Positions 33,955-60,583 of a stretch of 64,000 nucleotides of DNA are shown here, piece by piece. Source of the stretch: Ensifer sp. IC4062 (lineage in GTDB: Bacteria > Pseudomonadota > Alphaproteobacteria > Rhizobiales > Rhizobiaceae); contig NZ_JADYVD010000023.1 of the NCBI RefSeq assembly GCF_020193575.1, positions 1 to 64,000 of the forward strand, in the 5' to 3' direction. Position 1 is the stretch's first letter. Every line of letters begins with the position of its first letter. The notes beneath the pieces were generated by a model. That model did no database searches and was not told the origin of the DNA. It was given only the letters and a program-made list of their open reading frames with translations. Both the position numbers and the translations under genes were made by a program.

Positions 33955-34164
33955 ATGACGCGTTATAGGATAGGTGGCATTTCCCGAGCTCATATCGAAA
34001 GCATGGAGACCGGGATCGTGATTGAGAAAGAAATCACGGCAGCTGAGGAACGGAAATTTTCGGGCGATGGACCAGAGCTGACCGCAGAATGCACTGACGA
34101 AGGAATCTTAAAGATAATAAAGGGGGCTGGTGCGACCGTGCGAGCTTGTATGAGGTCCATCTGA
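33955..34164 (+). CDS. small protein of 69 aa, possible precursor peptide
   Basis: Begins MTRYRIGGISRAHIES, has an acidic helical middle (GIVIEKEITAAEERKF) and ends GAGATVRACMRSI. GGGGAAG precedes the ATG. It lies 8 bases before an NTP_transf_5 gene, and an HPr-kinase-like gene follows in the cluster. These families accompany lasso-type and other RiPP precursors, and also capsule/EPS clusters. No leader motif of a known RiPP class is visible, and there is no dedicated cyclase or protease pair. It may instead be a small partner protein of the nucleotidyltransferase. Confidence 0.55.
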   Translation: MTRYRIGGISRAHIESMETGIVIEKEITAAEERKFSGDGPELTAECTDEGILKIIKGAGATVRACMRSI

Positions 34165-34171
34165 CGTCGGT

Positions 34172-35272
34172 ATGAGGCCTCGCTTCGAAAAGACCCTGAG
34201 CCAAGTTGATCTTGTTTTGCTAGGGCTACTTGGTCCTGATCAATCGTCGTTGGCCTGGGTCAGGTCTAGTCTGCAATCCTGTAGCGAGACACCAGCTCTA
34301 GATGACGCGCTGTTTCGAGAGGTTTGTGCACGACACCTGGAGGTAATACTACTCGACCTTCTTGACGAAGATTTTTCCGGGAACCCTCTGGTTGAGCGAC
34401 TTTCAGGAAGTCTGGAAGGCCGGCGCCTCAGTGCGGAAATATTCCGCTCGGCTGCGGAACGAGTTGCGATTGATGTTTTGGCTATCTCTGAGGATGCAGG
34501 GATATCGGTGGCTTTCTTAAAGGGCCTCGTCGCCGGGGACCTTTATAGAACACCGAGCCAGCGAATTGTCCGCGACGTGGACGTCTTGACGCGCCCTGAA
34601 TCAGCGAAGATTCTGTTTGTTGAACTTCAGCGGCGTGGCTATTCTGCCGGAAGGTATGACAGGGGCAGCAATGCACTCGTGCCCTGGAGTCACTACAACA
34701 CCGATGGCGCATCTTATGAGATGCCCCCATTATGGATTGAAGTGGACGTAGATCTCGACGCAGACGTACGACGGAAACTGCCTAGAACGCCCTCAATGAG
34801 ATTTCGGTGGACCGATGCTGAAGAACTTAAAGCGCGTGTAGCTGTAGAGATTCATCGTGAGTTGTTCCCCAATGTCGCTATCAACGTCGACTGGCAGCAA
34901 CTCAATTCATCGTTGGATGGTTTACCGAAATTGAGCGGAGAACTCGAGTTAGTTTATGCGATCTATAAGTCATACACGGACTTAGTCCTGTTGCAGAAAT
35001 CGAGCGGATGCAAATTGGCCGCCGATGTTTTTCGGATATTGCACCGACGCCAAGGCCTACTTGATCTGGATCTTGCCGAACAAGTTGCTCTCACTGTCGG
35101 CGTCCCAGGTGCACTCAGCCAGTTCCTTCATTACGCAAGCTCTCTATTTCGAATGCAACATTTCCGGAATATCCCTGCGATCTTGGAAAGCCACCCCTTG
35201 GATATCTCAGATGTTCTGATCGCGGCGCTGCCAAGCCGATATCTTCCGTTTAACTTCCACAGTGGATCGTAG
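34172..35272 (+). CDS. NTP_transf_5 family nucleotidyltransferase (copy 1)
   Basis: 366 residues. The nucleotidyltransferase core shows VAFLKGLVAGDLYRTPSQR and RDVDVLTRPESAKI (catalytic DxD-type aspartates), then EIHRELFPN and a helical C-terminus. Proteins of this family occur in RiPP and polysaccharide clusters and are thought to transfer a nucleotide or phosphosugar group. The gene is 8 bases after the 69-aa ORF, so the two are co-expressed. A second family member is at 45565. Confidence 0.75.
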   Translation: MRPRFEKTLSQVDLVLLGLLGPDQSSLAWVRSSLQSCSETPALDDALFREVCARHLEVILLDLLDEDFSGNPLVERLSGSLEGRRLSAEIFRSAAERVAIDVLAISEDAGISVAFLKGLVAGDLYRTPSQRIVRDVDVLTRPESAKILFVELQRRGYSAGRYDRGSNALVPWSHYNTDGASYEMPPLWIEVDVDLDADVRRKLPRTPSMRFRWTDAEELKARVAVEIHRELFPNVAINVDWQQLNSSLDGLPKLSGELELVYAIYKSYTDLVLLQKSSGCKLAADVFRILHRRQGLLDLDLAEQVALTVGVPGALSQFLHYASSLFRMQHFRNIPAILESHPLDISDVLIAALPSRYLPFNFHSGS

Positions 35273-35611
35273 CTGTGCGCCCCCCCAACTTGTCAATGCG
35301 GATTGCGGGATCAAGCTATCAACTGCGTCAGCATGCCGAGATCAAGCCGGAGCATGCGCTCGAAGGCGCTGATCACTCCGCCAGCCTTCACCCCGCCGCC
35401 GAAACCGAGGGGACGGCTGTCGAAAAAAATGGTCATCTCTCCATTACGACTCCGTCGGCATAATTGGGGAATTTTACTTCGGCGCTTTTGGGAAAATCAA
35501 AAGCGGCATTGATACGCCATCAACGCTTCCTAGGAGAGCACAACCAACAAGCCCTTCATTTAGACCGATCCGGACAAAACTATCGCTGCTGTCACATCCA
35601 GGCACCAAGTG
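35273..35611. other. convergent intergenic region
   Basis: 340 bases between convergent genes. A C run (GCGCCCCCCCAAC) follows the nucleotidyltransferase stop. The rest has short frames with no support, and I saw no clear terminator hairpin. Confidence 0.35.
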
Positions 35612-36799
35612 TTAGACTCCATCTACTAGCAATGGCGAGCCAGAAGTTGTGATACGAGAGCCGTTTGGTGCCCCGCCACGCTTGCTATGCATCGAATCCA
35701 GCTGCTTTTTGAGAGCGTTCACAATCCGGTTAGCGGCGAAGCCGTCTCCGAAAATCTTACTCTGCCGTGCCATAGACGCGTAGAAGTTAGCATTATCCAG
35801 CAAAGAGGTTAGCTCGCGCGTAATTAGCTGATGATCTGCACCGACGAGTTTTGAAGCACCGGCTTCGACCGCTTCCCACCGCTCTGTCTCTGTTCGGAGA
35901 ACGAGAACAGGCTTTCCTAAAAATGGGGCTTCTTCTTGTATGCCGCCACTATCGGTCAGGATGATTTTTGCGCTGTTCATCAACGCTATCATTGACAAAT
36001 AGCTCTGAGGCTGAAGAAGGGTGACCCCGGCTTGGTTCCCGAGGATAGCTTCGGCTATTTCTCTGACTTGCGGATTTGGGTGGACCGGAAAAACGAACTG
36101 AACGTCGGGGCGGCTGAGGGAGAAATTTCTAATTGCGACGAAGATATTCCTCGCTCTCTCGCCGAAGTTTTCTCTTCGGTGCAGTGTCATAAGTACGAGT
36201 GCTTTGTCGGATTTAGGGATCACCGGTGACGCGGCGGACTTTGCCAATCTGACCGCGTCAATCCCCGTGTTACCCGTTACGAAGACGGTTGATGAATCGA
36301 CCCCTTCTTGAAGCAACGCGGATTTTGCGCGTTGCGTTGGAGCGAAATGTATGGTCGCTGCTAACGTCGCAATTTTTCGGTTGAACTCTTCTGGAAACGG
36401 TGAGCTCAAGTCACCGCTTCGGAGGCCAGCTTCAATATGACCGAAGGGGATGCCTTTGAGGAAGGCGGCCAACGCCGCGGCAAGAGCAGTCGCTGTGTCG
36501 CCTTGCCCCAACACAATCTGGGGCGCATATTCATCGAATGCTCTTCCCAGCTTCGTGATCAACGCTCCTACTACGTCCGTCAATGTCTGACTCGGCATCA
36601 TAATATCGAAATCGATATCTGGTTTCATGTCGAAATCAGCTAACGCATCACGCACCAGTTCTCGATGTTGACCTGTGAGTACAAGCATGGGCTCCGCCCA
36701 TGGGCTATTTTTAAGCTCAAAGATGACTGGAGCCATTTTGATCGCCTCCGGTCTTGTTCCGACGACACAGAGAATCCGATACCGGCAGGCTGCGCCCAT
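35612..36799 (-). CDS. wecB: UDP-N-acetylglucosamine 2-epimerase (non-hydrolysing)
   Basis: 395 residues, GT-B fold. Diagnostic segments are CVVGTRPEAIKMAPVIFEL, GQGDTATALAAALAAF, GHIEAGLRSGDLSSPFPEE, HRRENFG and TDSGGIQEEAPFLGKPVLVL. It interconverts UDP-GlcNAc and UDP-ManNAc in the cytoplasm. GAAGGAGAC precedes the ATG. The last 20 residues run past the usual end. In this cluster it would supply a ManNAc-type sugar nucleotide for the product or an associated glycan. It is the last gene of a leftward set starting at 39882. Confidence 0.92.
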   Translation of the reverse strand: MGAACRYRILCVVGTRPEAIKMAPVIFELKNSPWAEPMLVLTGQHRELVRDALADFDMKPDIDFDIMMPSQTLTDVVGALITKLGRAFDEYAPQIVLGQGDTATALAAALAAFLKGIPFGHIEAGLRSGDLSSPFPEEFNRKIATLAATIHFAPTQRAKSALLQEGVDSSTVFVTGNTGIDAVRLAKSAASPVIPKSDKALVLMTLHRRENFGERARNIFVAIRNFSLSRPDVQFVFPVHPNPQVREIAEAILGNQAGVTLLQPQSYLSMIALMNSAKIILTDSGGIQEEAPFLGKPVLVLRTETERWEAVEAGASKLVGADHQLITRELTSLLDNANFYASMARQSKIFGDGFAANRIVNALKKQLDSMHSKRGGAPNGSRITTSGSPLLVDGV

Positions 36800-36858
36800 G
36801 GCGCTTGTCTCCTTCTATATGCGCTAAGGTGAAAGACGGGCAACGTGGTTGGTGATGG

Positions 36859-37233
36859 CTATGCTGTTTCTCCAAGCGAGCGATGCAAAGCTTGAACGAG
36901 ATCCAAAGCGAGTGCAGCATCACCGGCGCCACACCCGCTGGGTCTTTCGAACCCCGTCAGGAGCCCGACGTGACAGCGCACTTGATGCAGGTCTTCAAAT
37001 AGACATAGGCGGTCTAGCTGGAGGGTCGGGTCAGATGTTCGGAATTGATTAGACAGCAAGTATTCATCTACCTCAGCAAGAATCGTTCGCGCGGAAAAGT
37101 AGATTGAAGCTCGTTGGCTGAGCGTTATGAATTCCGCGTCATTCAACAGGCTAATTAATTGCCGAAGCTTTTGAAGTAGAGTCTTTCTATCCATCCGCGA
37201 AACTTTCGGCTCGACCCAAGCAACAGGTAACAC
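36859..37233 (-). CDS. hypothetical protein (124 aa)
   Basis: A helical protein (LLQKLRQLISLLNDAEFITL, SARTILAEVDEYLL) without signal peptide or recognised domain. The start is uncertain: GTG at 37233 has AGGGGCA upstream, and ATG at 37194 (MDRKTLLQK) is the alternative. It lies 5 bases after the MazG-like gene, so the two are in one operon and possibly partners. It resembles small helical partner proteins but no family could be named. Confidence 0.5.
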   Translation of the reverse strand: MLPVAWVEPKVSRMDRKTLLQKLRQLISLLNDAEFITLSQRASIYFSARTILAEVDEYLLSNQFRTSDPTLQLDRLCLFEDLHQVRCHVGLLTGFERPSGCGAGDAALALDLVQALHRSLGETA

Positions 37234-37238
37234 TGCCC

Positions 37239-37871
37239 CTACTGAGCCTTTGAAAGCCGTGACCGTAGGCGCTCTGCTAGTTCGGATTGGGGACTGAGAA
37301 GGAGCTTGTCCCGCTCCTGAGTATGCTTCTGAAGAAAGCGACCTGCGTCCTCGAACATGTTATCTAGAGCTGCATTCAGCTCGACTCCAAGGTCGGTTGA
37401 TATCCAGCATAGGAGTGCAATCGCGCGTCTTACGCGGTCCCGCAGAAAAATCTCTTCTGAATCATATCCAGGGCGCTCCAGAGGAAGCTTAACCCCGAGA
37501 ACTGACATTACGCACTCCAATATCTGGCCTGCGAGCGCTGCAAGTTGGAAATAACCGTGCGCTTTGCTTTCGGGGAATGAGGTGACTGAGAGCGAATTGA
37601 GGTCCCCAGCGTTCACTCCAGAATAAATTCCTAAGGCAAGCAGGTGAAATGCCACATCCGCAACTTCGTCCTGTATGGAATCGATCCCTCTGTTGGCCTC
37701 CAGAGGAGCATCTTTTCCCTCCGATACCAAGAGAGCCACTCCCAGATGGCCAATTTGCACCAACAGTTCCTCCGCGATCTCCCGGGCGGTCCAAGGGTGT
37801 AATTCAACCACTTGAAATGCTATACGAAGATCAATCACTTTTTCGGAATATTCCGAAAGAGACCCCTTCAT
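37239..37871 (-). CDS. MazG-like all-alpha protein
   Basis: 210 residues. WTAREIAEELLVQIGHLGVALL and SIQDEVADVAFHLLALGIY place acidic residues in helices as in all-alpha NTP pyrophosphohydrolases (MazG/dUTPase superfamily), where they bind Mg and the diphosphate. Other parts are unfamiliar. The ATG overlaps the stop of the radical SAM gene (ATGA). The substrate could be a nucleotide or sugar nucleotide made in the cluster, or the fold may be regulatory. Family assignment is tentative. Confidence 0.55.
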   Translation of the reverse strand: MKGSLSEYSEKVIDLRIAFQVVELHPWTAREIAEELLVQIGHLGVALLVSEGKDAPLEANRGIDSIQDEVADVAFHLLALGIYSGVNAGDLNSLSVTSFPESKAHGYFQLAALAGQILECVMSVLGVKLPLERPGYDSEEIFLRDRVRRAIALLCWISTDLGVELNAALDNMFEDAGRFLQKHTQERDKLLLSPQSELAERLRSRLSKAQ

Positions 37872-39010
37872 CGCGTGTGTGCCTCTCCGGATAAGACCAG
37901 AGGCGTTCCGCCGGTGCTGCCAGAGTTCCAATAGGTATCCCCTTCCGTCTTGGTCACTCGAACCACTGTCCGAAGAGTTTGGCGCAGAAAGGCCACGCTG
38001 GCGGTGGACATCCGATGGTCGTTGATCTCTATGTATCGCTGACCAGGCTCATCCTTGAATTGCGCGGCTCCCATCGGCACGCCGGCCGCAGCCAACGCGA
38101 TCTCAATTGTACTTTGGTCGAGCTCCGCAGATCTCACCGTCGCACAGGTAAACCGCTGGTTTTGAGGGCAGGAACAAAGTTGACACCGTCTGCTGCCATA
38201 TACCGCCCCAAGGTCGCCCTCCCCAAGAACTAATGACAGAGCGCAGCTATTGTCGGTGTAGATTGAGTACGAAGGGTGTGCAGTTCGTAAGCGTTGCAGT
38301 TCGTTAATTGCCTGATCTGGCCAAACGTCTTCCGCCCTGACCGCTTCTTCGAACTGTTTATCCAGTTCAGGCCAATCTTTGACCTGCTGATACATCTCAG
38401 GATATAGTTTAAGTCCCGTCGCAACGGAGCAGCGCGCTGTTTTAGATACCCATTCGAACACTCTCTCCATTACTGCGCGGGTTGAGTTCTGAGGTAGCAG
38501 GGGCCTCCAATAGTGTACCACTGGTATTCCCCGCGCTGAAAGCGCTGTAAAATTATCTTTAAGCTTTGCGTGATTGATGCCAGGCTCTTCTTCAGTTGTG
38601 AGCCCTGAATAGCTCAAATATGCGATTATCTCACTTCCGGGCGCATTAAACTCTCCGAGCTTGTCGACAATGTTCGGTGGTATAAAGCACTTCGTAACAA
38701 AGCAAATCGGGTTGGTGCTGGAGCGGGCGCGGATGGAAGAGATCAACTCCATTAAGAGAGCCCGATTTGCCGATGTCGCAAAAGGGTCTGTATGAGTTAG
38801 AAGGCAAATCGGTGTTCTCGGCCGAAGATAGGGGTAGGTAAAGAGCTGCTCTATGGTTTCAGGGACGGTCGCAATCATAGTTGGCGCAGTAACCGTTTGC
38901 CCCCAGGGCCTAAGAAAGCAGTATTGGCAATTTTTGGGACATCCCTGAGCTGGATTGACGACAATCCAACTTGCCTGATGCTCGATTACTGGGTGAAACA
39001 GGCGCGTCAC
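37868..39010 (-). CDS. radical SAM enzyme
   Basis: 380 residues. NPAQGCPKNCQYCFLRPWG has CxxxCxxC for the SAM-binding [4Fe-4S] cluster. A second cysteine group near residue 300 (RRCQLCSCPQNQRFTC) may bind an auxiliary cluster. GTG 39010 is the best start: it has GGGGAGGG directly upstream and overlaps the TGA of the methyltransferase (GTGA). A longer frame to 39082 would run inside that gene. The core is reminiscent of the SPL/SplB-like branch, but the reaction is unknown. It forms an operon with the methyltransferase and MazG-like genes. Confidence 0.8.
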   Translation of the reverse strand: MTRLFHPVIEHQASWIVVNPAQGCPKNCQYCFLRPWGQTVTAPTMIATVPETIEQLFTYPYLRPRTPICLLTHTDPFATSANRALLMELISSIRARSSTNPICFVTKCFIPPNIVDKLGEFNAPGSEIIAYLSYSGLTTEEEPGINHAKLKDNFTALSARGIPVVHYWRPLLPQNSTRAVMERVFEWVSKTARCSVATGLKLYPEMYQQVKDWPELDKQFEEAVRAEDVWPDQAINELQRLRTAHPSYSIYTDNSCALSLVLGEGDLGAVYGSRRCQLCSCPQNQRFTCATVRSAELDQSTIEIALAAAGVPMGAAQFKDEPGQRYIEINDHRMSTASVAFLRQTLRTVVRVTKTEGDTYWNSGSTGGTPLVLSGEAHTR

Positions 39011-39882
39011 GATGCCCTCCCCGATGAAGTGAGAGCGTAAGCGAGGCCGCGCGGCTTTTTTAGAAGTTCGAGCAAACTCCACGTAAGTTCTCTGCCGTGC
39101 AAGCTCAGCCCTCGTTCGTGTGCCACTTGTCTGATACCATCAGGAAGTTCTTTGTTTTTGAATTCAAGTACTTCGGTAACCTGAAAGCCGTTTGACTCGA
39201 ACAAAGATTGTGCTTGTTTGAGCGTGTAATGTCGGTAATACGGGTTGAAGTAGCGGTCGACCATTTTCCTCCGATTGGGGAGCAGGGTTGCCTCGTCTTG
39301 AGCGCCGGTGATTAAGCGCCCCGGCGCGGTGCTACCGAGTGCCTCAATGAGAATATTTATTGTCGAGAGCTGTGCATCTAGAGACTGGTTTGCTCCACCA
39401 AGCCTTCGATTCAGTTCAATCACATCTTCGATATCCCGCCGCCCGAATGGGTTGTAAAGCCAAGCAATTAGGAGCCCTTGAGGCACGAGGCTGCGCCGGA
39501 AATTTCGGATGACCGGCTCTGGATCACGAATGTGATGTAGTACGCCCTGACAGTAGATGAAATCGTAAGCATTCGGGTTGTCAGCAAGTGAGGTTAAATC
39601 GCCGACGTAATAGTTTATGTTCACGGACGCTGGCGTCGCCGCCTTGGCGGCTTCAATCGACGATTGAGAGAAGTCGATTGCGTCGATCTGGGCATTGGGA
39701 AGCTCCAATGCAATCATGCGCGTTAAATCGCCTGTTCCGCATCCAGCGTCGAGGACGCATTTGATTTCACGATTCCGTAGCTCAGGAGCGATAAACCGCT
39801 CAAAATAACCCCCATAATCGGTGCCAAACGGGTATGGCTCCGCTTCGTAGAAGTCTCTGACAGGCGTGTGGGAAGTTTCCAA
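39007..39882 (-). CDS. class I SAM-dependent methyltransferase
   Basis: 291 residues. Motif I VLDAGCGTGDLTRMIALE, then acidic IDAIDFSQSSIEAAK, YDFIYCQGVLHHIRDPEPVI and LVPQGLLIAWLYNP follow the Methyltransf_11/25 pattern. The N-terminus (YEAEPYPFGTDYGGYF) resembles methyltransferases that act on bulky substrates in biosynthetic or sugar pathways. The first gene of the leftward set 39882-35612, divergent from the Nudix gene. The substrate cannot be told. Confidence 0.85.
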   Translation of the reverse strand: METSHTPVRDFYEAEPYPFGTDYGGYFERFIAPELRNREIKCVLDAGCGTGDLTRMIALELPNAQIDAIDFSQSSIEAAKAATPASVNINYYVGDLTSLADNPNAYDFIYCQGVLHHIRDPEPVIRNFRRSLVPQGLLIAWLYNPFGRRDIEDVIELNRRLGGANQSLDAQLSTINILIEALGSTAPGRLITGAQDEATLLPNRRKMVDRYFNPYYRHYTLKQAQSLFESNGFQVTEVLEFKNKELPDGIRQVAHERGLSLHGRELTWSLLELLKKPRGLAYALTSSGRAS

Positions 39883-40026
39883 AAGCCACCACTCCTATGC
39901 CGATTGCGGTCACCAAACTAAGCAATTTTTCCGAGCACGCAACCCCTATTGACAAATCAGCACAATCTGCAGGAGTGTTAGCGTGGATTGTAGAGCGCGA
40001 CGACCTTCTCCCGGGAAAGTAGTAAG

Positions 40027-40677
40027 ATGAACATTGACATCTTCGACGACAAATATCGCTACGTTGGTGTGGCAGGAAAGAAAGAAGCCCACCAGCAGGG
40101 CTTGTGGCACCACGTTTTTTCCGCGGTAGTACTGCTAAAAGATAGCGAAACCATCGTTTTGCAGCGCAAGGCCCCTGGTCGTTATGCATTCGACCGGCCG
40201 GACTCAGTTGACATCTCAGTCGGCGGTCACCTCGACGCCGGTGAAATGATATCTGACGGCGTTCGCGAAATTGAAGAAGAGCTGGGACTAAAGGTTCAGT
40301 TCGACCAGTTAATCCCGTTGGGAATCCGCCAGACCGCTGCAACGATCTCGCCAGATTACATCGCGAACGAATTCCAGCACATTTTCCTCCTCCCCCTGGA
40401 CATGAAGTTTGAGGATTTCCGGCTCCCCGGGGGCGAGGTGACAGGCATTGTCGAAGTGCCGCTCAGGGAGGGCATCGATCTGCTTCTTGAACGGCGAAAG
40501 GAGGTGCGGGTGCGTGCTTTGTATGTGGGTGAAGAAGGCCAGCGTTTAGAGGATGGGACGCTTACAAAAGACGACTTCACGAAGGCATATCTTGAGCTCG
40601 ATCAATTGTTCTTGCGGCTGTTCATCGCCGCAAGACGGTGGATCGACAAGGAAGATCCGGCCCAGATCTTTTGGTAA
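40027..40677 (+). CDS. Nudix hydrolase (IPP-isomerase-like)
   Basis: 216 residues. VDISVGGHLDAGE followed by REIEEELGL is a Nudix box, but with six instead of seven residues between the Glu and the RE pair, so the loop-helix is one residue short. The N-terminal DKYRYVGVAGKKEAHQQGLWHHVF is typical of IPP-isomerase/YfcD-like Nudix proteins. It may hydrolyse a nucleoside diphosphate derivative in the pathway. Its start lies in a 145-base gap shared with the divergent methyltransferase, so a bidirectional promoter is likely there. Confidence 0.8.
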   Translation: MNIDIFDDKYRYVGVAGKKEAHQQGLWHHVFSAVVLLKDSETIVLQRKAPGRYAFDRPDSVDISVGGHLDAGEMISDGVREIEEELGLKVQFDQLIPLGIRQTAATISPDYIANEFQHIFLLPLDMKFEDFRLPGGEVTGIVEVPLREGIDLLLERRKEVRVRALYVGEEGQRLEDGTLTKDDFTKAYLELDQLFLRLFIAARRWIDKEDPAQIFW

Positions 40678-40714
40678 CGAAAACGCCGCCGGCGATATCC
40701 ACTGGGAGGCTTCA

Positions 40715-41563
40715 ATGGGGCGGTTTAGTTCAGGGGCTGCTGTCGCTGACTTTGATTTCCTCGGACGGATTGAAACTGGGTGCTTCGTAAAGGAACTTCG
40801 TCCCGCTAGTGAGCTCGCTCTCCGTCAAATGAAGAGCCAACTGGGGCCTCATCCGAAAAGTGCCATTGAAAGGTATATCGCAACGTTGGAGCGGGCGGGC
40901 GTACCAGTTGCCGAGCTCGTCGGTGTCGACTTTGACCGTGATCCGCCCCTTTTCGTCCAGCGTAGGGTGAACCACCCTACCCTTTCCGAAGTCCTTCTTG
41001 ATGAGTTTCGGTCGCCGCGTCCGGTTCCCGCACGCTCGCTTGGGTTCCTTAGCTTGATTTTGGAATATATCACCTCCGTTGCCTTCGAGGATCCGGACAT
41101 CCGGATTGACAGCAGTGCCAGTAATTTCGCTGTCATAGGCAAATCTCAACCACTGGTTCTGCTCGATGTGATTCCTCCATGGCGACTTTCGATGCGGAGT
41201 CGAGAGGAGACAGATGCGGAGGCTGTTCTCGGTCGTTTAACTTTTGAGTGGACTGAACAGATAAGTGACCTTTTATGTGAATGGCTTCGGCCCCTTGTTT
41301 CCCTCGAATACTCCACTGATCGGCTCCGGACTATTCTTGCAGACTTGATGCCGCGTTTGGAGGCGATGTTTCAACAGGCGGTGTCTCGGTTGAATCCATT
41401 CGGGGCGGTTGTTCCGTCAATTCCCATGGGAAGCTTCGATGTATGGTCGGAAAACAGAGCGTTTCGGCGGTTCAATTTATTCCGGGCCTTCATGTCGTAT
41501 GAAATTTCGCGGACCGAGCTTTTCGACATCTTTCGCAAAACATCGACCAAATACGTGATTTAA
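40715..41563 (+). CDS. uncharacterised protein, possibly kinase-like fold (282 aa)
   Basis: No certain family. A segment DSSASNFAVIGKSQPLVLLDVIPPW recalls the Asn and Asp/Pro motifs of aminoglycoside-phosphotransferase-like proteins, and the middle is helical. TGGGAGG precedes the ATG. The stop is immediately followed by the HPr-kinase-like ATG at 41564, implying tight coupling. It may phosphorylate a pathway intermediate, but this is speculative. Confidence 0.5.
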   Translation: MGRFSSGAAVADFDFLGRIETGCFVKELRPASELALRQMKSQLGPHPKSAIERYIATLERAGVPVAELVGVDFDRDPPLFVQRRVNHPTLSEVLLDEFRSPRPVPARSLGFLSLILEYITSVAFEDPDIRIDSSASNFAVIGKSQPLVLLDVIPPWRLSMRSREETDAEAVLGRLTFEWTEQISDLLCEWLRPLVSLEYSTDRLRTILADLMPRLEAMFQQAVSRLNPFGAVVPSIPMGSFDVWSENRAFRRFNLFRAFMSYEISRTELFDIFRKTSTKYVI

Positions 41564-43784: not shown

Positions 43785-43791
43785 GGTTCTT

Positions 43792-45510: not shown

Positions 45511-45542
45511 GCCCGCCGAGGGCTCCATCATGGCTTTTTTTT
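45509..45542 (+). terminator. hairpin plus T run after carbamoyltransferase gene
   Basis: GAGCCC-gccga-GGGCTC begins inside the stop codon. Nine bases later come eight T. The gap makes it a weak intrinsic terminator, perhaps giving partial read-through into the nucleotidyltransferase gene at 45565. Confidence 0.4.
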
Positions 45543-49079: not shown

Positions 49080-49091
49080 GGTCGCCCCCTC

Positions 49092-51849: not shown

Positions 51850-51964
51850 TTGCGACTCCTCGACATGGATATCCGATTGCGATTATACAGGTTCGACTCG
51901 ACAATCCTCAGTGGTAGAAAACCATAACTCAATCGCGGTCGCAAACTGTTTTGGAAGGCGGGTG

Positions 51965-53796: not shown

Positions 53797-54074
53797 CAGC
53801 CGTCGCCGATTGAAGACAAATTCCCCTCAGGCAACTTGTTCCTAAGGGTTGTGAATATGGTTTCGACTGAAACCCAATTCTCAAAAAGGAGCTCTGCGTC
53901 AGAGAACTCTACACCCAAGTCTTTCTCCAGTTGCAATGCAATTGCTGCCATGTCGATAGACGAGACGCTCTCATCAGCAAAATTTGTAGACAAGGTTAGC
54001 GGGAGGACATCCAGATCATCAACTGCCTTCCTAATTGCATTCTCCAGTAATTTCAATAGCTGTAGCTCTGGCAT
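53796..54074 (-). CDS. acyl/aminoacyl carrier protein 2
   Basis: 92 residues. FADESVSSIDMAAIALQLEKD carries the attachment Ser in the SSIDM motif. GGAGG precedes the ATG. Located between a degenerate condensation-type protein and a phosphatase. Two carrier proteins imply two thioester-bound building blocks, or one donor and one acceptor, as in stand-alone NRPS-like assembly. Confidence 0.82.
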   Translation of the reverse strand: MPELQLLKLLENAIRKAVDDLDVLPLTLSTNFADESVSSIDMAAIALQLEKDLGVEFSDAELLFENWVSVETIFTTLRNKLPEGNLSSIGDG

Positions 54075-54092
54075 CTCGCCGCCCTCCGTTCT

Positions 54093-55331
54093 CTAAGCTG
54101 CACTTGAAGCCCAGCCAATGGATAAGTCATGTAGCTCTTGGCAGAAATCCTCCACCTCCATTCCCTCAATACATTCAGGATCGAAGTATGAATCGAAGAG
54201 CATTTCGGTCCCAGTGTCTAGACAGCCAATGCTCACGGTTTTACCTGCTTCGCGAGGGAAGGGATCTGCTGAAAAGTAGACGCGCCGCGGGACCCCTCGT
54301 GCGGCCGATTGCGGATACTCCGTCGTTGCCGTTAGCTGGATAGGCGTTGAGGGACATGTGCTCAGATCAGCGTCCCAAACTCGAAATGAGCTTCTCAAAG
54401 TATAGGCTGTTCTGAAGGATTGTCGTACAGTTTCGAAGTGGGACGTCAGCGGTTCTTCGCCACGGCCGTCAATCTTCACAGCGAGTGAATCTACGAACAT
54501 CCCTACAGTGGCTTGGTGGCGGACCGGGTGTCGCCAAGTGAACGGGACCCGAACACAGAAATTCGTCCGCCTTGTGCGACGCGCGAGTGCCTTGCTGGTC
54601 AAGCTCAGAGAAAGGTGGAAAAAAGTGATGCCTTTGCTTCGCATCGCATTGCGCAAAACCCGCAGCGCGGTACCTGAGAGCTTTGCCGAGCTGCAGACGT
54701 ACTCCTTGCCCTTCGTTTTGCCCGGATCAAAGAGGAGCGTCACGTCCTTCATATAGTCATCCCAGAGCAGGCGTTCTTGCTGCGTCACTGGATCGGCTAG
54801 GCGAGAATTTTCTGCCTCGACAAAATCCAGAAACCGATCTGTCCGAGGAGAGCCGGTAAAGGTTTTTTTAAGCTTCTCAGTCAGGACGCGCCCGAACTCT
54901 TCCTCGAAAATATTTCGCGAACGATCGTCAGCGATGACATAACTCCACACCGCCAGCAGAACTATTTTTCTTGGGCTGCTTTGGACAATCCCGAATCGCG
55001 TTAGCTCCCCGAAAGGATCAAATGGCTGAAAAATGAACTCCCTCACGCGATCCGCGCCTATTATAGGCAGCGAGCCAAGCGACCATGCAGCGGATTTGTC
55101 CTCCGCAAACTGAAACCATTGTTCATTGATTTTCATTAGGCGTAGGCGTAGGGCAGCTTGACTGGCAACGATTGCCTCGAGGGTCTCTGTTGCAAGAACG
55201 CTCAAGTCAGAATCGATTTCCAGCGCGATGTACTGATTGATGGCCCGGGAGTCAGAGCGACCGTCACGCATGCTCCTAGCGATTGAGGCTTGGGCCGGGC
55301 GAAGTCTTATTCCTCGCATCGGGAGCGTCAT
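54093..55331 (-). CDS. condensation-domain-like protein with lost catalytic histidine
   Basis: 412 residues. The ends RLRPAQASIARSMRD, IFQPFDPFGELTRF and RVPFTWRHPVRHQATVGMFVDSLAVKI match the C-domain fold, including the late VGMFVN-type motif. The active-site region reads VWSYVIADDRS, so HHxxxDG has become SYVIADD without the second His. It is therefore likely to be structural, to bind carrier protein, or to use another residue. ATGA overlap with murE shows coupling. A partner role for the C-domain at 51965 is plausible. Confidence 0.72.
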   Translation of the reverse strand: MTLPMRGIRLRPAQASIARSMRDGRSDSRAINQYIALEIDSDLSVLATETLEAIVASQAALRLRLMKINEQWFQFAEDKSAAWSLGSLPIIGADRVREFIFQPFDPFGELTRFGIVQSSPRKIVLLAVWSYVIADDRSRNIFEEEFGRVLTEKLKKTFTGSPRTDRFLDFVEAENSRLADPVTQQERLLWDDYMKDVTLLFDPGKTKGKEYVCSSAKLSGTALRVLRNAMRSKGITFFHLSLSLTSKALARRTRRTNFCVRVPFTWRHPVRHQATVGMFVDSLAVKIDGRGEEPLTSHFETVRQSFRTAYTLRSSFRVWDADLSTCPSTPIQLTATTEYPQSAARGVPRRVYFSADPFPREAGKTVSIGCLDTGTEMLFDSYFDPECIEGMEVEDFCQELHDLSIGWASSAA

Positions 55332-56935
55332 GAGCCTCTGCTGCCCTCGCAGCCTGTTTCATTGAAAGCCGCCCCGAAATGGCCCCGGTCCCTTAGAAGC
55401 TCGCGGATGACGGCTCTGTCACTGAAAAACCTCTTCCTCGTTCGACGAGCAGAGGAGCTGTGTTCCTCTGCAACGATCTGGTAATCTTCGTGACCTTTGC
55501 CCGCGATCACGAGTACATCTCCCTCCCCCAGATCAGCAATGGCAGCCTCGATAGCGCGCTTTCTGTCAGGTATTTCCCAAACACTCGTGCTGCCGGGGAT
55601 GCCTTCAATGATCTGACGGCGTATCGCCTGAGGGTCTTCAGTGCGAGGATTGTCGTCTGTAACGTACAAGCGATCGGCTAACCGTGCCGCGACCGCGCCC
55701 ATCTCCGCTCTTTTCAGAGTATCTCTGTCGCCACCGCATCCGAAAACAACCGCCAACGATCTGTCTCTGACGAAAGGCCGGACTGAAACAAGGACATTTT
55801 TCAGGGCGTCTGGTGTGTGCGCAAAGTCCACATAGATGGCCGCCTGGTTGCCGAGCACTGCGGTTAACTCTAGACGTCCAGGAACGGGGTTGAAATATGA
55901 TGCCGCTTCAATGGCTCTTGAGGGCTCTGCGCCAGATGCTATGGCGAGGCCGATAGCGCACAAAGTATTCTCTGCTTGAAAGTCCCCCAGAAAGGGTAGC
56001 TCCATTCTATAACTGGATCCGAACACTCCAATTTCAAGTGACTGCCCCTTGGCGCTGCGCACCCGCCTAAGGAGTTTGAGGTCGGCGGCGGCGGCGCCAC
56101 ATGAATAGCTGATTACAGATCTCGACGGTTTTAGCTTGTCGTAAAACGCCCTTCCGGTCACATCATTAACATTGAGAACTGCTGTTCCTGATTGTCTCAT
56201 CCTTTCCGTAAACAGCCGCAGTTTCGACTCAGCATACTCCGCCATAGAGTTGTGATAGTCCAAGTGTTCGTGGCTTAGGTTCGTAAATCCTGCGATGTCG
56301 AAGTCAAGCGCAGCTAGGCGTTGTTGATGAAGGGCATGACTTGAAGCTTCCATCACTAAATGGGAGACGCTGTGATGTGTAACAAGCTGATTTAATAGGC
56401 TACTCGTGGTCTTCGCATCATACGTCGTTGCCGTGGCTGTAAGATTCGTATGAGTCACTCCGGCGCCCCGTAAACCTAATGTGCCGAGTGAAAGAGCGTT
56501 CTCGCCCAGGTGGCTCCACAACTCCGATAGAAAGGACGCGGTTGACGTTTTGCCGTTAGTGCCGGTGACAGCGGCGAGCATCTTCGGCCGCTTCGGGTAG
56601 AGGATCCGCAGCAGCGATGAAAAAAACACGTTAACGTCGTCAACAGCAATCACGACAACCTTACTAAGGTCATATTCACTGATTGCGAGATCTTCGGCGC
56701 GGGCAGTCGACGGAACAACTATGGCCTGCGCGCCACCCGCGATTGCTGCAGAACAATAATTCACGCCATCTCGATGCGCCCCTTGGTATGAGGGCTTCGC
56801 GCAAAAGATGTCTCCAGGGCGAACCTCCCGAGAATCCTCGGTCGCGCCGAAAACCCACAGATCGCCCGGAGCTCCATGGACCTTCACAACTCCGGGAAAT
56901 TTGCACAGTTCGGCGAGCCTCATTAAATCCCTCAT
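55328..56935 (-). CDS. murE: MurE-type UDP-MurNAc-peptide ligase
   Basis: 535 residues, Mur ligase fold: N-terminal UDP domain (SYQGAHRDGVNYCSAAI), ATP domain AAVTGTNGKTSTASFLSEL, VMEASSHALHQQR, HEHLDYHNSMAEYAESKLRLF, and C-terminal DDNPRTEDP and AGKGHEDYQIV. DNPR is the motif associated with meso-diaminopimelate. The enzyme adds an amino acid to a UDP-MurNAc-dipeptide. A chromosomal copy must exist for the cell wall, so this one may act on a pathway intermediate or be a resistant variant. ATG at 56923, with GAGGGAT upstream, is an alternative start. Confidence 0.92.
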   Translation of the reverse strand: MRDLMRLAELCKFPGVVKVHGAPGDLWVFGATEDSREVRPGDIFCAKPSYQGAHRDGVNYCSAAIAGGAQAIVVPSTARAEDLAISEYDLSKVVVIAVDDVNVFFSSLLRILYPKRPKMLAAVTGTNGKTSTASFLSELWSHLGENALSLGTLGLRGAGVTHTNLTATATTYDAKTTSSLLNQLVTHHSVSHLVMEASSHALHQQRLAALDFDIAGFTNLSHEHLDYHNSMAEYAESKLRLFTERMRQSGTAVLNVNDVTGRAFYDKLKPSRSVISYSCGAAAADLKLLRRVRSAKGQSLEIGVFGSSYRMELPFLGDFQAENTLCAIGLAIASGAEPSRAIEAASYFNPVPGRLELTAVLGNQAAIYVDFAHTPDALKNVLVSVRPFVRDRSLAVVFGCGGDRDTLKRAEMGAVAARLADRLYVTDDNPRTEDPQAIRRQIIEGIPGSTSVWEIPDRKRAIEAAIADLGEGDVLVIAGKGHEDYQIVAEEHSSSARRTRKRFFSDRAVIRELLRDRGHFGAAFNETGCEGSRGS

Positions 56936-56969
56936 AGAAAAGTTACTGAGCGGGAGCGGTGATCCTGCC

Positions 56970-57965
56970 CTAACAGGGCCGCATTATCTTAACCCCGGTG
57001 AAGCCGCAGTTGCGGCAGTAATCGGTCAAGCTCCGAATTCTGGTATCATCGTACCCGTAGAGGTTCTGACCCTCGGCCATTGCGACGACATCAGGTTCGG
57101 TAGGCCAATAAGAGAGGGATACGCCAAGTTGCTCAATCCGAGCGTCTCCTTGGTAAAATAAGCCCGTATGCCGTCCGGCAAAGTTGACTGGGACGTCCCG
57201 CCTGCAACTCGCATTCCGGCTTGCATGAATGAAGGTTAAAATGTCGTCCATAACCACCGCGATTGCGCAATGGCTTACGAGATTTCCGCATTGATCGTCT
57301 TTTGAACGTGTGAAGAGGAGTATATCTCCGCTTTTGACATTATCAGATTCCACTTGGTCGAGGTGCTCGGTTGGAATGAATGTGGAAGCGATCATTTCTG
57401 AGCCAATCTTCCTTCGCACAACTCGCTTCTCAGGGTCGAATTGCTCCGGCCGTTGAATCGGGCGCTCGAATGCTGAATAGGATCGTACCAGACTCCAATG
57501 GACGCACTCACACGTAACATCCCTCAGATAGCCCAGGTGAACCCCCTGTACGATTAGAGATTCTGAGCAAAAATCTAGGATAGTGCCCTGATCGGGGTTG
57601 CTGTCTAACGAGTTCTCATCTCTATACCGTAAGCAGGCTAGGTTCTGTGCGAAATCAATCAGAGACTTCGATCTCGCCAACGCGATCACAGTGTAAACGA
57701 GCGTAACACAATCAAGCGTCTCCAATCTCAGTCGGAGTACGCCCCTTCGCGGAATAGGCAGCGCCGACTCCGGATAAAAAGGAGTTCCTAGTAGAAATTT
57801 TGCTGCTTGGTCGGTCTTGGCGTGTGGAGCTAGATCTCGCTCCGAGAGCCTGATGATGAATTCCTCGACTGCCTGTGTTGAGTGCGGACCGAACTCAATT
57901 AGACACGGGATGTGACCGAGCTCCCTTTCCACGCTTATATATTGCTCGCGCTCAAAGAAAGCCAT
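56970..57965 (-). CDS. DUF1460/amidase-like cysteine peptidase fold protein
   Basis: 331 residues. LETLDCVTLVYTVIALARS has the catalytic Cys context of DUF1460 N-acetylmuramoyl-L-alanine amidase-like proteins, and GNLVSHCAIAVV plus ILTFIHAS supply the His pair. Members cleave gamma-D-glutamyl bonds of cell-wall peptides or act on small peptide substrates. No signal peptide, so it acts in the cytoplasm. Next to MurE and PgeF it supports chemistry on muropeptide-type intermediates. Confidence 0.72.
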   Translation of the reverse strand: MAFFEREQYISVERELGHIPCLIEFGPHSTQAVEEFIIRLSERDLAPHAKTDQAAKFLLGTPFYPESALPIPRRGVLRLRLETLDCVTLVYTVIALARSKSLIDFAQNLACLRYRDENSLDSNPDQGTILDFCSESLIVQGVHLGYLRDVTCECVHWSLVRSYSAFERPIQRPEQFDPEKRVVRRKIGSEMIASTFIPTEHLDQVESDNVKSGDILLFTRSKDDQCGNLVSHCAIAVVMDDILTFIHASRNASCRRDVPVNFAGRHTGLFYQGDARIEQLGVSLSYWPTEPDVVAMAEGQNLYGYDDTRIRSLTDYCRNCGFTGVKIMRPC

Positions 57966-57975
57966 GCTTCATCTT

Positions 57976-58581
57976 TCACGATTTTTTCGCTACGAAAATG
58001 GTTCTGCCCGAGTGAACCTTCGAATGGCGGTGGGTGACGTCCAGCCTATTGACCACCGTGCCGAGCCTACCAACGTACTCCTCAATCCAGCTATACTCAG
58101 AGATACATTCAAAGATCATCGTCCCGGATTCATTCAGAAACTCGGCGATCTTCTGAAAGATGTCTTCGAAACTGCCGCTCGATTTGTGAGAGTAGCCGAA
58201 CCCTATGCCGGCCCAGACAACGCAATCAAAGTTTGTTGCCTCAATCCCCGAGATATCTCGAATATCGCCGCATATAAAGGTAGCGTTTGGGTCCTCTTGG
58301 AACCTCTGCTTCGCCGCGGCAATGACTGTGGGAGATATATCGACACCCACGTATCGCCTAAACGCGCTGAAACAGCTGCGGAGCTCGCCCGTCGTGCATC
58401 CAATGTCTAGGATTCTGGAGCAATCTCGTTGTTCAATCAAGCCGCCGATGATCGCGTAGCGCGCGGAGAGGGTATCTTCAAGTAGATAGTCGTAGGCTCC
58501 TCGTACGTGAGCCTCCTCTTGTCGTTGAGGATCAGACGTAAGCTCCTCGCGCTCCGCGGCGGTAAGGCTCGACTTGACCAT
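57976..58581 (-). CDS. class I SAM-dependent methyltransferase 2
   Basis: 201 residues: ILDIGCTTGELRSCFSAF (motif I, with CTTG in place of CGTG), YVGVDISPTVIAAAKQRF, FICGDIRDI and FDCVVWAGIGFGY. The preferred ATG at 58581 has GGATG about 9 bases upstream; a start at 58620 would overlap the PgeF-like gene. Substrate unknown. It lies 10 bases upstream of the DUF1460 gene in the same operon. Confidence 0.82.
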   Translation of the reverse strand: MVKSSLTAAEREELTSDPQRQEEAHVRGAYDYLLEDTLSARYAIIGGLIEQRDCSRILDIGCTTGELRSCFSAFRRYVGVDISPTVIAAAKQRFQEDPNATFICGDIRDISGIEATNFDCVVWAGIGFGYSHKSSGSFEDIFQKIAEFLNESGTMIFECISEYSWIEEYVGRLGTVVNRLDVTHRHSKVHSGRTIFVAKKS

Positions 58582-58585
58582 TGGT

Positions 58586-59431
58586 TCATCCAAGATTATC
58601 TGCCCCCCTGCTGCCTTCAACTCGACTGCCCGCAGAAAGACCCGCGACTGTCAGAAGGTTGCCTCGTGGTCCGTGCCCAAGCTTACTGCTTTGATGAGAG
58701 AAAAATTTGCGGCCGTCGGTGTAATAAGAGGGGCGGGCAATATTCTGCCGCCGCACACCTCCATTGGTCGCCTGATCACAAAAAGCTGCGACCAAATCAA
58801 AACATAATTCGTCATCCCCATTGTTACGGATAAAGTTCTCCGCTCTGGGGTGCTTCACCAAGAGTTGACTAGATATAGCATTCCACAAGCCCGACTGGCT
58901 GACGATGTAATCATCACCCGAGATCGATGGCCCAAGAAGCACACGAAGATCACGGGAACGGGCGCCGTGTTCTTCCATACTGCGGAGAACGTTGAAGACG
59001 ATGCCATTAGCCAGCCCTAAAAGCCCAACATGAGCCAAGCAAGCGAGACCCGTCGAAACAGATACGAAGAATGCTGGAATGCAGTCGGCTGAAATAACAC
59101 CAGCAGACCTTTCCCCTAGATCAAACAGAACCGCGTCGTAAAAACTGGCAGATTCCTTTCCTTCCACCCATACAGGATGAGGGAAGTTCCGTATTCTGAA
59201 ATCTGCGCCCAGGGCAACCGCAACGTTCGAGGTATGCCGCGGATCAACGATTATGGTTTCGTATAGAAGTTCGAGGCGCTGCAAAAAAGTGGCTCGATTA
59301 CGGTGAACCTTTTCAGCTGCCTCAAGGTGAGTGGACATGTTGCCATCGGCTATACACGACGCACAGAACAGGAGCTGCGGAGGCAGCAATTTCCCCTCTT
59401 CCGAGTAGAACGAACCGGATGCAAAAACCAT
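58586..59431 (-). CDS. PgeF/YlmD-like (laccase-domain) protein
   Basis: 281 residues. Metal-ligand regions DPRHTSNVAVAL (His), VISADCIPAFFVS (Cys) and LAHVGLLGLANGI (His; canonical AHAGWRG) follow the YfiH/PgeF pattern, with the third motif altered. PgeF cleaves wrongly incorporated residues from UDP-MurNAc-amino acid. Associated here with MurE, it could edit or hydrolyse a nucleotide-linked amino-acid intermediate. The changed third motif may mean a different substrate. Confidence 0.75.
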   Translation of the reverse strand: MVFASGSFYSEEGKLLPPQLLFCASCIADGNMSTHLEAAEKVHRNRATFLQRLELLYETIIVDPRHTSNVAVALGADFRIRNFPHPVWVEGKESASFYDAVLFDLGERSAGVISADCIPAFFVSVSTGLACLAHVGLLGLANGIVFNVLRSMEEHGARSRDLRVLLGPSISGDDYIVSQSGLWNAISSQLLVKHPRAENFIRNNGDDELCFDLVAAFCDQATNGGVRRQNIARPSYYTDGRKFFSHQSSKLGHGPRGNLLTVAGLSAGSRVEGSRGADNLG

Positions 59432-59644
59432 GATGGTCTTCCTGAATACTTCATGCGTCGGTGTTTCGCTTACAACTGCGATTTGGGCGTGGAGCTTTTC
59501 ATATGCACGGAATGCGTGTCAACCCACTTCGATTTAGGGTTGTCAAAAGACGAGGTTCGGATAAGTTTGAGCAGTTGCATATTGGATTTTGGTATATTGC
59601 TGGTTGCTCAACACCTTCGATCGGCAAAAGACCTGGGAGCTTGT

Positions 59645-60583
59645 ATGTCGGGAGCGATAACCGGTATCGTCCTAGCGGGTGGCTACGGCGGTAGATTTTA
59701 CCCATTTACGAAAACCGTTCCAAAGGAGCTGCTACCGGTTAGCGGGGTACCCACAATACATTGGGTCTTGCGGGAGTGTGTCGCTGCAGGAGTGGCCAGA
59801 ATAAAGGTTGTGCGGCGCGCAGACACCGATCTGACAGAGGCGCATTTTGCCGCGAGCACACAGGTCGATGATTATCTTCGATCTATTCACAACATCGAGG
59901 CTGGTACGTCCACGTTTAGCGACATTGTGTCGAGGGTGGAATTCCTTCCAGAGAGGCCTTGCAAGTACGGGACGCTAGGCCCCTTTCTCCAGGCTGCGCA
60001 AGCAGAAGATGCCGCTGATCGTTATCTGGTTTGTTTCGGTGACGAAGTTTTTATCCCAGCCCCTGCTGAACGCACTACATGCCAGCGTCTTCTGGATGGT
60101 AGCTCTCAAGCGGTAATAGCCGTCTTGGACGAGCTAGTTGCTCCTGGCGGAATATTCGGCATCGCCGAACTGGAAGCAGATCAGGATGAGTTCAGTTCTG
60201 TTCTAGAGCTTTGGCAGAAGCCTCATACTCCAGCTACCCCCCACGGCTTTCCTATTGTAAGTCGGCTCGTTATTGATGCAGATTTACTCACACCACTGCG
60301 TCGTCTTTTTGATGAAGGCGAGTCTGATCTACTTACTGCTCTCACTAAAATCCCCGGAGTAAGTATTACTGCAGTGAAAACTCGTGAGGTCTGGGGCACT
60401 GTTGGTGATCCAGCATCTTACCTCGCGCTCCTTAGCAAAGCCCATGCGGCACATCGGCCAGTCGACATAGTTGATTTCTATCGCGATTTGCTGCGTGTCC
60501 CGGTCATGCCCGACGGTGATTCCGATCTGAAGCTGAACACCCACTCCAAAGTGAGCCGTCTGGTTCGAATGGGGCAGACATAA
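59645..60583 (+). CDS. sugar-1-phosphate nucleotidyltransferase (GalU-like)
   Basis: 312 residues: GIVLAGGYGGRFYPFTKTVPKELLP (nucleotide and metal loop), YLVCFGDEVFIP (metal Asp), KPHTPATPHGFPIVSRLVI and WGTVGDPASYLALL follow UTP:glucose-1-phosphate uridylyltransferases, but the substrate residues are divergent. GGGAGC precedes ATG 59645; the longer frame from 59303 is a shadow of the PgeF-like gene. It is the last + gene of locus C, making a UDP- or other NDP-sugar. A bidirectional terminator candidate follows at 60744. Confidence 0.85.
   Translation: MSGAITGIVLAGGYGGRFYPFTKTVPKELLPVSGVPTIHWVLRECVAAGVARIKVVRRADTDLTEAHFAASTQVDDYLRSIHNIEAGTSTFSDIVSRVEFLPERPCKYGTLGPFLQAAQAEDAADRYLVCFGDEVFIPAPAERTTCQRLLDGSSQAVIAVLDELVAPGGIFGIAELEADQDEFSSVLELWQKPHTPATPHGFPIVSRLVIDADLLTPLRRLFDEGESDLLTALTKIPGVSITAVKTREVWGTVGDPASYLALLSKAHAAHRPVDIVDFYRDLLRVPVMPDGDSDLKLNTHSKVSRLVRMGQT

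Follow-up and report, generated by a model that had tools for sequence, protein, structure and literature searches.

A 27.3-kb island of foreign DNA in Ensifer sp. IC4062 carries what is best read as a new dissociated nonribosomal peptide synthetase (NRPS)/aminosugar gene cluster. The island lies in the window analyzed here, a stretch of 64,000 nucleotides of contig NZ_JADYVD010000023.1 (positions 1 to 64,000; contig C91 of a 7.12-Mb genome). It is real, foreign, and unmatched in the collections searched, and it was acquired horizontally in a single insertion relative to plasmid pSMED03 of Sinorhizobium medicae WSM419. Our tentative proposal is that its genes make up a single pathway, the product of which is an exported specialized metabolite probably aimed at the cell wall, with a second copy of MurE as protection. 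A first-pass annotation of the window had placed an unrecognized biosynthetic cluster at 33955-60583, and none of our searches matched its combination of genes. Its genes span 34172-60583, and the blastn junctions extend the foreign DNA itself to 33427-60760. The gene families it listed are present by Pfam (26 island proteins) or NCBIfam (20 of these 26) matches, although those of the radical S-adenosylmethionine (SAM) and HprK-like proteins are sub-threshold. The inventory also has to include a NUDIX protein, a dual-specificity phosphatase (DSP)-type protein, a DUF6206-like protein, and proteins of 353, 230, and 124 amino acids (Table 1).

On either side of the island, the window is collinear with plasmids of the pSMED03 type (blastn comparison with locus L042 of pSMED03). 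The left flank (window 29780-33426) is 92.6% identical to pSMED03, the right flank matches it in two pieces (60761-61913 at 94.9% and 61914-64000 at 95.9%), and the two junction points are only 1,107 bases apart in that plasmid. Flank spacing without the island is 1.05 to 2.1 kb in the six plasmid records common to both tables of 15 best matches (out of 331 matching records for the left flank and 86 for the right), and 4.2 kb in a seventh, L036. The backbone of the window is 92-97% identical to Sinorhizobium plasmids, 71 of the 86 plasmid records matching the right flank are typed conjugative, and in S. americanum plasmid A type IV secretion system genes are reached from this flank. The host replicon is therefore probably a conjugative plasmid of Sinorhizobium type that carries the island at a cargo site.

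The first-pass annotation had allowed for a chance mosaic, but the pSMED03 comparison and codon usage show one acquired segment of uniform composition. GC content is 51-55% in the island and 53-64% in the rest of the window, where the stretch at 20-28 kb is likewise low at 53-58%. Codon usage, calculated from the longest open reading frames (ORFs) with both carrier proteins and the 124-amino-acid protein omitted from the island genes, is indistinguishable between the left half (11 genes) and the right half (12 genes) of the island (p 0.516; 1,000 permutations). The difference between these 23 island genes and 20 flank ORFs, which were hand-picked, partly overlap, and possibly include some false genes, was unmatched in 300 permutations (0/300). 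Alike codon usage is no proof of joint function, yet it takes away one sign of a mosaic. The island genes are also tightly packed, falling into four runs of one strand each in which neighbors overlap or lie no more than 59 bases apart: PgeF, methyltransferase MT2, DUF1460, MurE, condensation protein C2, carrier ACP2, and phosphatase (59431 to 53248); deacetylase, ATP-binding cassette (ABC) exporter, acyl coenzyme A dehydrogenase (ACAD)-fold flavoprotein, amino acid:carrier protein ligase (aaCPL), and carrier ACP1 (51849 to 46773); NUDIX, DUF6206-like, HprK-like, and 353-amino-acid proteins, carbamoyltransferase, and NTP_transf_5 (40027 to 46653); and methyltransferase MT1, radical SAM, 230- and 124-amino-acid proteins, and epimerase (39882 to 35612). 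Condensation protein C1, the other NTP_transf_5 protein, and the GalU-like protein stand singly outside these runs.

Alternatively, two independent clusters may adjoin, one for sugar/phospho-glycan tailoring (34.1-46.7 kb) and one for a peptide (46.8-60.6 kb), having arrived together or in turn. Each half has operons of its own, no locus that we examined joins the halves, and the equivalent site in the related S. americanum plasmid A holds unrelated cargo, an IS66 element. Relatives of the radical SAM protein occur in Streptomyces plasmids, and the four loci viewed there show no peptide-gene match and, in two, a weak GalU-like match. However, codon usage is alike in both halves, the Pfam scan of the 26 island proteins matched no transposase family, two sugar enzymes (the deacetylase and the GalU-like protein) lie inside the peptide half, and only one insertion separates the plasmid from pSMED03. 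We consider an origin as two clusters unlikely.

The reading of the island as one dissociated NRPS/aminosugar cluster begins with its aminoacyl-carrier genes. A free-standing carrier, an activating enzyme, and a condensation enzyme, the components by which a dissociated NRPS is recognized, all occur in the island. The stand-alone aminoacyl-carrier chemistry suggested at first pass is borne out to the extent that free carriers, an aaCPL, and condensation proteins are found without a megasynthase. No AMP-binding (adenylation) or ketosynthase family was matched in the 26 island proteins (Pfam, E 0.01), and the absence of modular NRPS and polyketide synthase (PKS) genes reported earlier therefore stands. 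The sole NRPS/PKS-named match is that of C2 to NF004282, which reaches 29.9 bits against a cut-off of 4090 over the condensation part.

According to the sections of a review that we consulted, aaCPLs load Gly, Ala, or Ser onto carriers, and their role is called unknown (PMC9437257). Searching genome contigs (84,980 species) with an alignment of aaCPLs returned at least 553 relatives in at least 594 stretches, of which we compared the best 80 loci (67 of them at least 20 kb long; flanks up to 10 kb; neighbor matches at E 1e-8). The island aaCPL is 39-46% identical to eight other aaCPLs and 42-47% identical to those of the best 80 loci. An ACAD gene lies directly upstream of the aaCPL gene on the same strand in 80/80 of these loci, and in the island the two genes overlap by 4 bases. 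DUF1839 is found in 79/80 (directly downstream in 78/80) and GH2 in 77/80, and neither has a match in the whole window at the same threshold. None of the 80 loci contains a match to C1, C2, MurE, DUF1460, PgeF, the deacetylase, the phosphatase, the radical SAM protein, the carbamoyltransferase, or the HprK-like, GalU-like, NTP_transf_5, and epimerase proteins, while the ABC exporter matches in 26/80, as is possible for any ABC ATPase. A wider test of the 26 island proteins against 94 loci (E 1e-5) found aaCPL in 89, ACAD in 93, ABC in 30, and MurE in 1, the last in a housekeeping cluster. The aaCPL has no other match in this genome, and the ACAD occurs in 29/398 phylum genomes (E 1e-15).

By these comparisons the aaCPL, ACAD, and carrier form a known, common rhizobial/Burkholderia module, which narrows the novelty first claimed for the cluster to the partners of the module here. 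The island shares with the canonical module (ACP-ACAD-aaCPL-DUF1839-GH2) a full-length aaCPL, an ACAD directly upstream, and a dedicated carrier. It differs in lacking DUF1839 and GH2, in having the carrier after the ligase, and in its partners, which are condensation proteins, MurE, a deacetylase, and an exporter. The pair seems to serve several pathways, since annotated plasmids show differing gene settings. A Priestia megaterium plasmid (L044, 6052-19875) has ACP-ACAD-aaCPL in another non-canonical setting, alongside a D-Ala-D-Ala ligase, an alanine permease, an alanine racemase, and genes of ATP-grasp and ComX type; an Acinetobacter plasmid (L045, 4532-13101) has a relative of the island ACAD, with no aaCPL, near two D-Ala-D-Ala ligases and a glycosyltransferase; and Streptomyces plasmids with the ACAD only have a flavin reductase and adenylating enzymes alongside. 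That some settings adjoin wall-precursor genes is suggestive only. Placed among condensation, sugar, and export enzymes and not beside DUF1839 and GH2, the aaCPL-ACAD pair of the island offers a concrete pathway in which this pair can be studied.

A close analogy for the chemistry lies in azaserine and triacsin biosynthesis, where the ACAD homologues AzsF and Tri22 dehydrogenate a glycine-like thioester bound to a carrier, as described in the consulted parts of PMC10445470. At the level of enzyme type, these systems and the island share a stand-alone carrier, a dedicated activating enzyme, an ACAD-fold oxidase, and a condensation-type enzyme. However, the island would activate its amino acid with a class II synthetase homologue where theirs is an AMP-dependent synthetase, and it has a sugar arm and no match to a hydrazine-forming family.

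Within the sugar arm, the assignment of the WecB-type epimerase is solid at the level of sequence, and the GalU-like protein matches the UTP-glucose-1-phosphate uridylyltransferase 2pa4 at E 1e-16. TobZ, the nearest solved structure to the carbamoyltransferase, acts on an aminoglycoside. The carbamoyltransferase and the deacetylase are features shared with TobZ/NodU-type carbamoylated aminosugar antibiotics, but no aminocyclitol or polyketide scaffold family was matched in the island. The HprK-like P-loop protein shares one run with an NTP_transf_5 protein, which recalls PsmK/PsmN, a kinase and a nucleotidyltransferase-family protein that tailor a lasso peptide with phosphate and hexose; the passages of the review to which we refer leave open whether PsmN itself adds the hexose (PMC9266682). 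This likeness is at the level of protein family, the kinase match in the island is sub-threshold, and no lasso-peptide Asn-synthase-like cyclase or protease was matched there by Pfam, short precursor genes not having been sought.

Of the 40 plasmid records matched by the radical SAM protein, 12, all of them from Streptomyces, carry relatives that are 31-39% identical across 92-97% of the protein, and no solved-structure relative was found. In two of the four Streptomyces loci viewed (L158-L161) the relative lies beside a MurA paralogue and a class II aldolase, and the other two contain a GalU-like transferase, a methyltransferase, a glycosyltransferase, and a dCTP-deaminase-like gene; these neighbors point to sugar-nucleotide chemistry. 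The island resembles the PolH/PolJ and TunB nucleoside antibiotic systems in having radical SAM, phosphatase-like, and NUDIX proteins in one cluster, and a radical SAM enzyme and a phosphatase cooperate on a nucleotide in polyoxin biosynthesis, according to the sections consulted of PMC5365060. It differs from them in that no MurA-type enolpyruvyl transferase or TunA-like protein was matched. The likeness to polyoxin and tunicamycin biosynthesis is proposed as an analogy only. The Streptomyces setting recurs and resembles a nucleotide-sugar cassette of linear plasmids. These loci were dropped as candidate sister clusters, having in common with the island only the radical SAM protein and, in two of four, the weak GalU-like match.

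The presence of a MurE copy of its own hints that the product of the island may interfere with bacterial cell walls. The island MurE aligns with Escherichia coli MurE (1e8c) over residues 32-494 and keeps the catalytic and substrate motifs compared: the ATP loop, the lysine carbamylated in E. coli, the SSH and Q/R region, DNPR, and GKGHEDYQ. A housekeeping-type MurE encoded elsewhere in the genome (contig C131) is 40% identical to it. MurE matches were found in 32 of 33 genomes of the genus (E 1e-20), all but the island's own at 38-42%, and one of the 32 other genomes (70% complete) showed none. A second, intact MurE, the mark of target duplication, thus lies inside an island that we take to be biosynthetic, and it probably serves the self-protection of the producer. 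Self-protection is our first choice because a copy of the same function would be redundant unless its tolerance or dosage differs.

A comparison of residues led us to drop the idea that all three wall-related genes confer resistance, as it fails for PgeF. YfiH, as portrayed in the parts of PMC8844914 that we consulted, has the triad Asp89-Cys107-His124, contacts UDP and MurNAc through W127, R128, Y227, and R228, holds the substrate carboxylate with R235, and cleaves UDP-MurNAc-mono- and, weakly, dipeptides. Aligned to the PgeF of its own genome, the island PgeF keeps the Asp, C117, and H134 of the triad, but AHAGW(K/R)G has become AHVGLLG and FFSYRR has become FFSHQS. The positions of YfiH W127, R128, Y227, and R228, carried over by motif and not by direct alignment to YfiH, are L, L, H, and Q. 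Only the changes at W127, R128, and R228 count, because 7fbg likewise has His where YfiH has Tyr. With these contact residues changed, the island PgeF should not bind UDP-MurNAc as YfiH does and is probably retasked. The DUF1460 protein has relatives 4h4j (E 3e-5) and 2p1g (E 4e-5), with Cys and His aligned. The PgeF and DUF1460 proteins may both be enzymes retasked for the pathway, with predicted amidase action.

MurE could instead be a biosynthetic step, its cytoplasmic UDP-MurNAc-tripeptide being cut by the DUF1460 and PgeF-like proteins so that an Ala-Glu-diaminopimelate peptide or a muramyl nucleotide becomes the scaffold joined to the carrier-bound amino acid. The murE gene shares a run with pgeF, a methyltransferase gene, and the genes for DUF1460, C2, and ACP2, overlapping that of C2 by 4 bases. 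The DUF1460 protein is annotated as N-acetylmuramoyl-L-alanine amidase-like and has no signal peptide by eye, and the activity of YfiH on UDP-MurNAc-peptides would suit such a step. The loss of the YfiH UDP contacts from the island PgeF argues against it, and since the host owns a MurE, an extra copy with the same motifs would be redundant as a biosynthetic enzyme. We regard this role for MurE as improbable.

Returning to MurE as protection, the single insertion, uniform codon usage, tight packing, families, and motifs lead us to infer a pathway whose product would be a small molecule, probably an aminosugar or sugar-nucleotide that bears aminoacyl and carbamoyl groups and acts on cell-wall precursor synthesis. 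The aaCPL would load a small amino acid on ACP1, and the ACAD-fold enzyme would oxidize the ACP1-bound aminoacyl thioester. C1, which keeps its active-site His, could transfer an acyl group from a carrier onto an amine that the deacetylase has exposed. The epimerase and the GalU-like enzyme would provide an activated N-acetylhexosamine-type sugar, decorated by the carbamoyltransferase and methyltransferases and, with phosphate and possibly hexose, by the HprK-like and NTP_transf_5 enzymes, and the DSP-type phosphatase would take off a phosphate. If the PgeF-like and DUF1460 proteins are amidases of the cytoplasm, they may trim or form amide bonds, and the ABC protein would export the product. 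The extra MurE, with motifs for the normal substrate, would be a tolerant copy that shields the producer.

Several observations weigh against this pathway, the weakest point being that functional unity is read from a single example of the combination. C2 has no catalytic His, the 124-, 230-, and 353-amino-acid proteins have no family, and the GalU-like, radical SAM, HprK-like, and DSP proteins are assigned only to family level or by matches below threshold. Self-protection by MurE is argued from duplication and conserved motifs alone, and the nearest MurE relatives inspected are of housekeeping type (Tistrella, 43%; genus, 40-42%). The conserved Arg taken as YfiH R235 is Asn in the island PgeF (Gly-Arg to Gly-Asn), so even its amidase role is uncertain.

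If MurE is indeed the target marked by this copy, the product would act at a cytoplasmic step of wall synthesis. To our knowledge, no natural-product antibiotic in use acts on that step. The boldest version is a new class of wall-directed metabolite, from the first pathway in which the widespread aaCPL and its ACAD partner would feed a defined product. This product would be linked to an aminosugar bearing carbamoyl and phosphate groups, MurE would be its target, and the island copy of MurE would protect the producer. We consider this version decidedly improbable. Even if MurE is not the target, the island gathers tailoring enzymes into a compact and mobile set, undescribed in our searches, that includes a PgeF homologue from which UDP-binding residues have been lost.

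The rhizobial plasmid host and the NodB-, NodU-, and NodS-like domains raise the alternative of a surface-glycan or Nod-factor-like modification set for symbiosis, and a symbiotic surface factor was among the products first suggested. MT1 passes the Pfam NodS cut-off (26.5 versus 24), although general methyltransferase families score much higher. Matches to NodB (65.9 bits versus 240) and NodU (154.7 versus 1000) fall far below the NCBIfam cut-offs, and no NodA, NodC, or glycan polymerase/flippase family was matched in the island proteins scanned. No close copy of the island MurE was found in the 32 other genomes of the genus. A symbiotic role is therefore disfavored, and we consider it highly unlikely.

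No scan found a second locus with the gene combination of the island. Megablast of its 24.8-kb core against 72,556 plasmid records, from which records of the same or very near genomes were possibly left out, returned nothing, and no such cluster is described in the literature searched, which covered few subscription papers. C2 matches 11 of 297 family genomes at E 1e-3; apart from its own, these are segments of 20-36% identity within NRPS-like frames of 816-2,805 amino acids, leaving no close relative in the 296 other genomes, and plasmids gave four partial matches (22-25%). Among 385 class genomes C1 matched its own and one 22% segment within a 1,623-amino-acid frame, with no close relative in the other 384 and no plasmid match. 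The radical SAM protein has no close relative in 198 other order genomes (E 1e-30) or 348 other phylum genomes (E 1e-25), nor has DUF1460 in 328 other phylum genomes (E 1e-4); the family, class, order, and phylum samples overlap. Scans whose reach is close relatives only found none for C2 in genome and viral contigs and none for DUF1460 and the radical SAM protein in viral contigs. In plasmids, DUF1460 has one partial 30% match (Parabacteroides), PgeF has eight partial matches (25-29%; four annotated pgeF), and the 353-amino-acid protein has no match. MurE copies elsewhere were rejected as sister loci: a Rhizobium leguminosarum plasmid copy lies in a housekeeping division cluster; the Tistrella copy, with more Mur-ligase matches after it, was taken as housekeeping; and the second MurE genes of two genus members (G701:C3:289735-291087 and G704:C30:48908-50290) have no island-gene match nearby except generic ABC matches.

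Table 1. Features of the island, with window coordinates and the evidence for each assignment
Feature	Position	Strand	Evidence
Inserted island, 27.3 kb	33427..60760	.	blastn junctions vs pSMED03; GC 51-55%
IS66 transposase C-terminal element, probable remnant, left junction	33455..33526	+	PF13817 E 0.0055, below curated cut-off; residues 13-36 of frame from 33419
NTP_transf_5 nucleotidyltransferase-like protein a	34172..35272	+	Pfam 54.7 bits, cut-off 31.2
UDP-GlcNAc 2-epimerase, WecB type	35612..36799	-	TIGR00236 417.6 bits, cut-off 210
124-amino-acid protein, no family	36859..37233	-	DUF7632 E 0.06, sub-threshold
230-amino-acid protein, no family	37239..37931	-	MazG-likeness by eye only; single-sequence AlphaFold2 model pLDDT 41, too poor to use
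Radical SAM protein	37868..39082	-	CxxxCxxC at residue 48; Pfam 20 bits vs cut-off 29.5; NCBIfam rSAM_PA0069 sub-threshold
SAM methyltransferase 1 (MT1)	39007..39882	-	Methyltransf_25 71.7 bits
NUDIX hydrolase-like protein	40027..40677	+	PF00293 30.4 bits, cut-off 21.1; strict NUDIX-box pattern unmatched
DUF6206-like protein	40553..41563	+	PF19709 20.2 bits, sub-threshold; true start probably near 40715
HprK-like kinase	41564..42730	+	TIGR04355 60 bits, cut-off 200, sub-threshold; P-loop GDSGAGKT
353-amino-acid protein, no family	42723..43784	+	single-sequence AlphaFold2 model pLDDT 36, too poor to use
O-Carbamoyltransferase, NodU/TobZ type	43792..45510	+	PF16861/PF02543; TobZ nearest solved structure, E 2e-94
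NTP_transf_5 nucleotidyltransferase-like protein b	45565..46653	+	Pfam 84.8 bits
Carrier protein ACP1	46773..47024	-	PP-binding 26.9 bits, cut-off 20.8
Amino acid:carrier protein ligase (aaCPL)	47038..47919	-	PRK07080 352 bits, E 2e-105, 5 below curated cut-off 357
ACAD-fold flavoprotein	47916..49079	-	Pfam and NCBIfam; relatives adjoin aaCPLs
ABC exporter, fused transmembrane and nucleotide-binding domains	49092..51053	-	PF00005/PF00664; B-family exporters in PDB; true start probably near 50906
Polysaccharide deacetylase, NodB/PdaB type	50959..51849	-	PF01522 74.6 bits; every NCBIfam match sub-threshold
Stand-alone condensation protein C1	51911..53251	+	PF00668 53.6 bits; SHLLTDG motif
DSP-type phosphatase	53248..53796	-	PF00782 30.1 bits, cut-off 33.5, sub-threshold; HCX5R present as HCEAGISRS
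Carrier protein ACP2	53796..54074	-	PP-binding 28.5 bits
Stand-alone condensation protein C2	54093..55331	-	PF00668 69 bits; degenerate motif SYVIADD
MurE, second in genome	55328..56935	-	NF001124 501.8 bits, above equivalog cut-off 476
AmiA-like/DUF1460 cysteine amidase (predicted)	56970..57965	-	PF07313 64.1 bits; no signal peptide by eye
SAM methyltransferase 2 (MT2)	57976..58620	-	Methyltransf_25 52.8 bits
PgeF/YfiH-like amidase (predicted; Cu-oxidase_4)	58586..59431	-	PF02578 98 bits; NCBIfam PgeF 73.7 vs cut-off 141
GalU-like nucleotidyltransferase	59645..60583	+	PF00483 51.2 bits; ORF 59303-60583, start probably 59645

Outside the island, the 3.3 kb immediately to its left (window 30125-33426) encode a 536-amino-acid protein, elsewhere annotated as a membrane protein, and an alpha/beta hydrolase. 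The 15 Sinorhizobium plasmid records that match best contain this pair at 90-97%, and several of them have two or three matching places. A separate small cassette at 20141-26925 comprises a methyltransferase, an MR/MLE racemase-type enzyme, an octopine/nopaline dehydrogenase-like protein, an FCD-GntR regulator, and an ATP-grasp protein with an L-amino-acid-ligase C-terminal domain, and it possibly serves opine- or dipeptide-type metabolism. An IS110-type transposase gene (27896-29020) lies between this cassette and the island.

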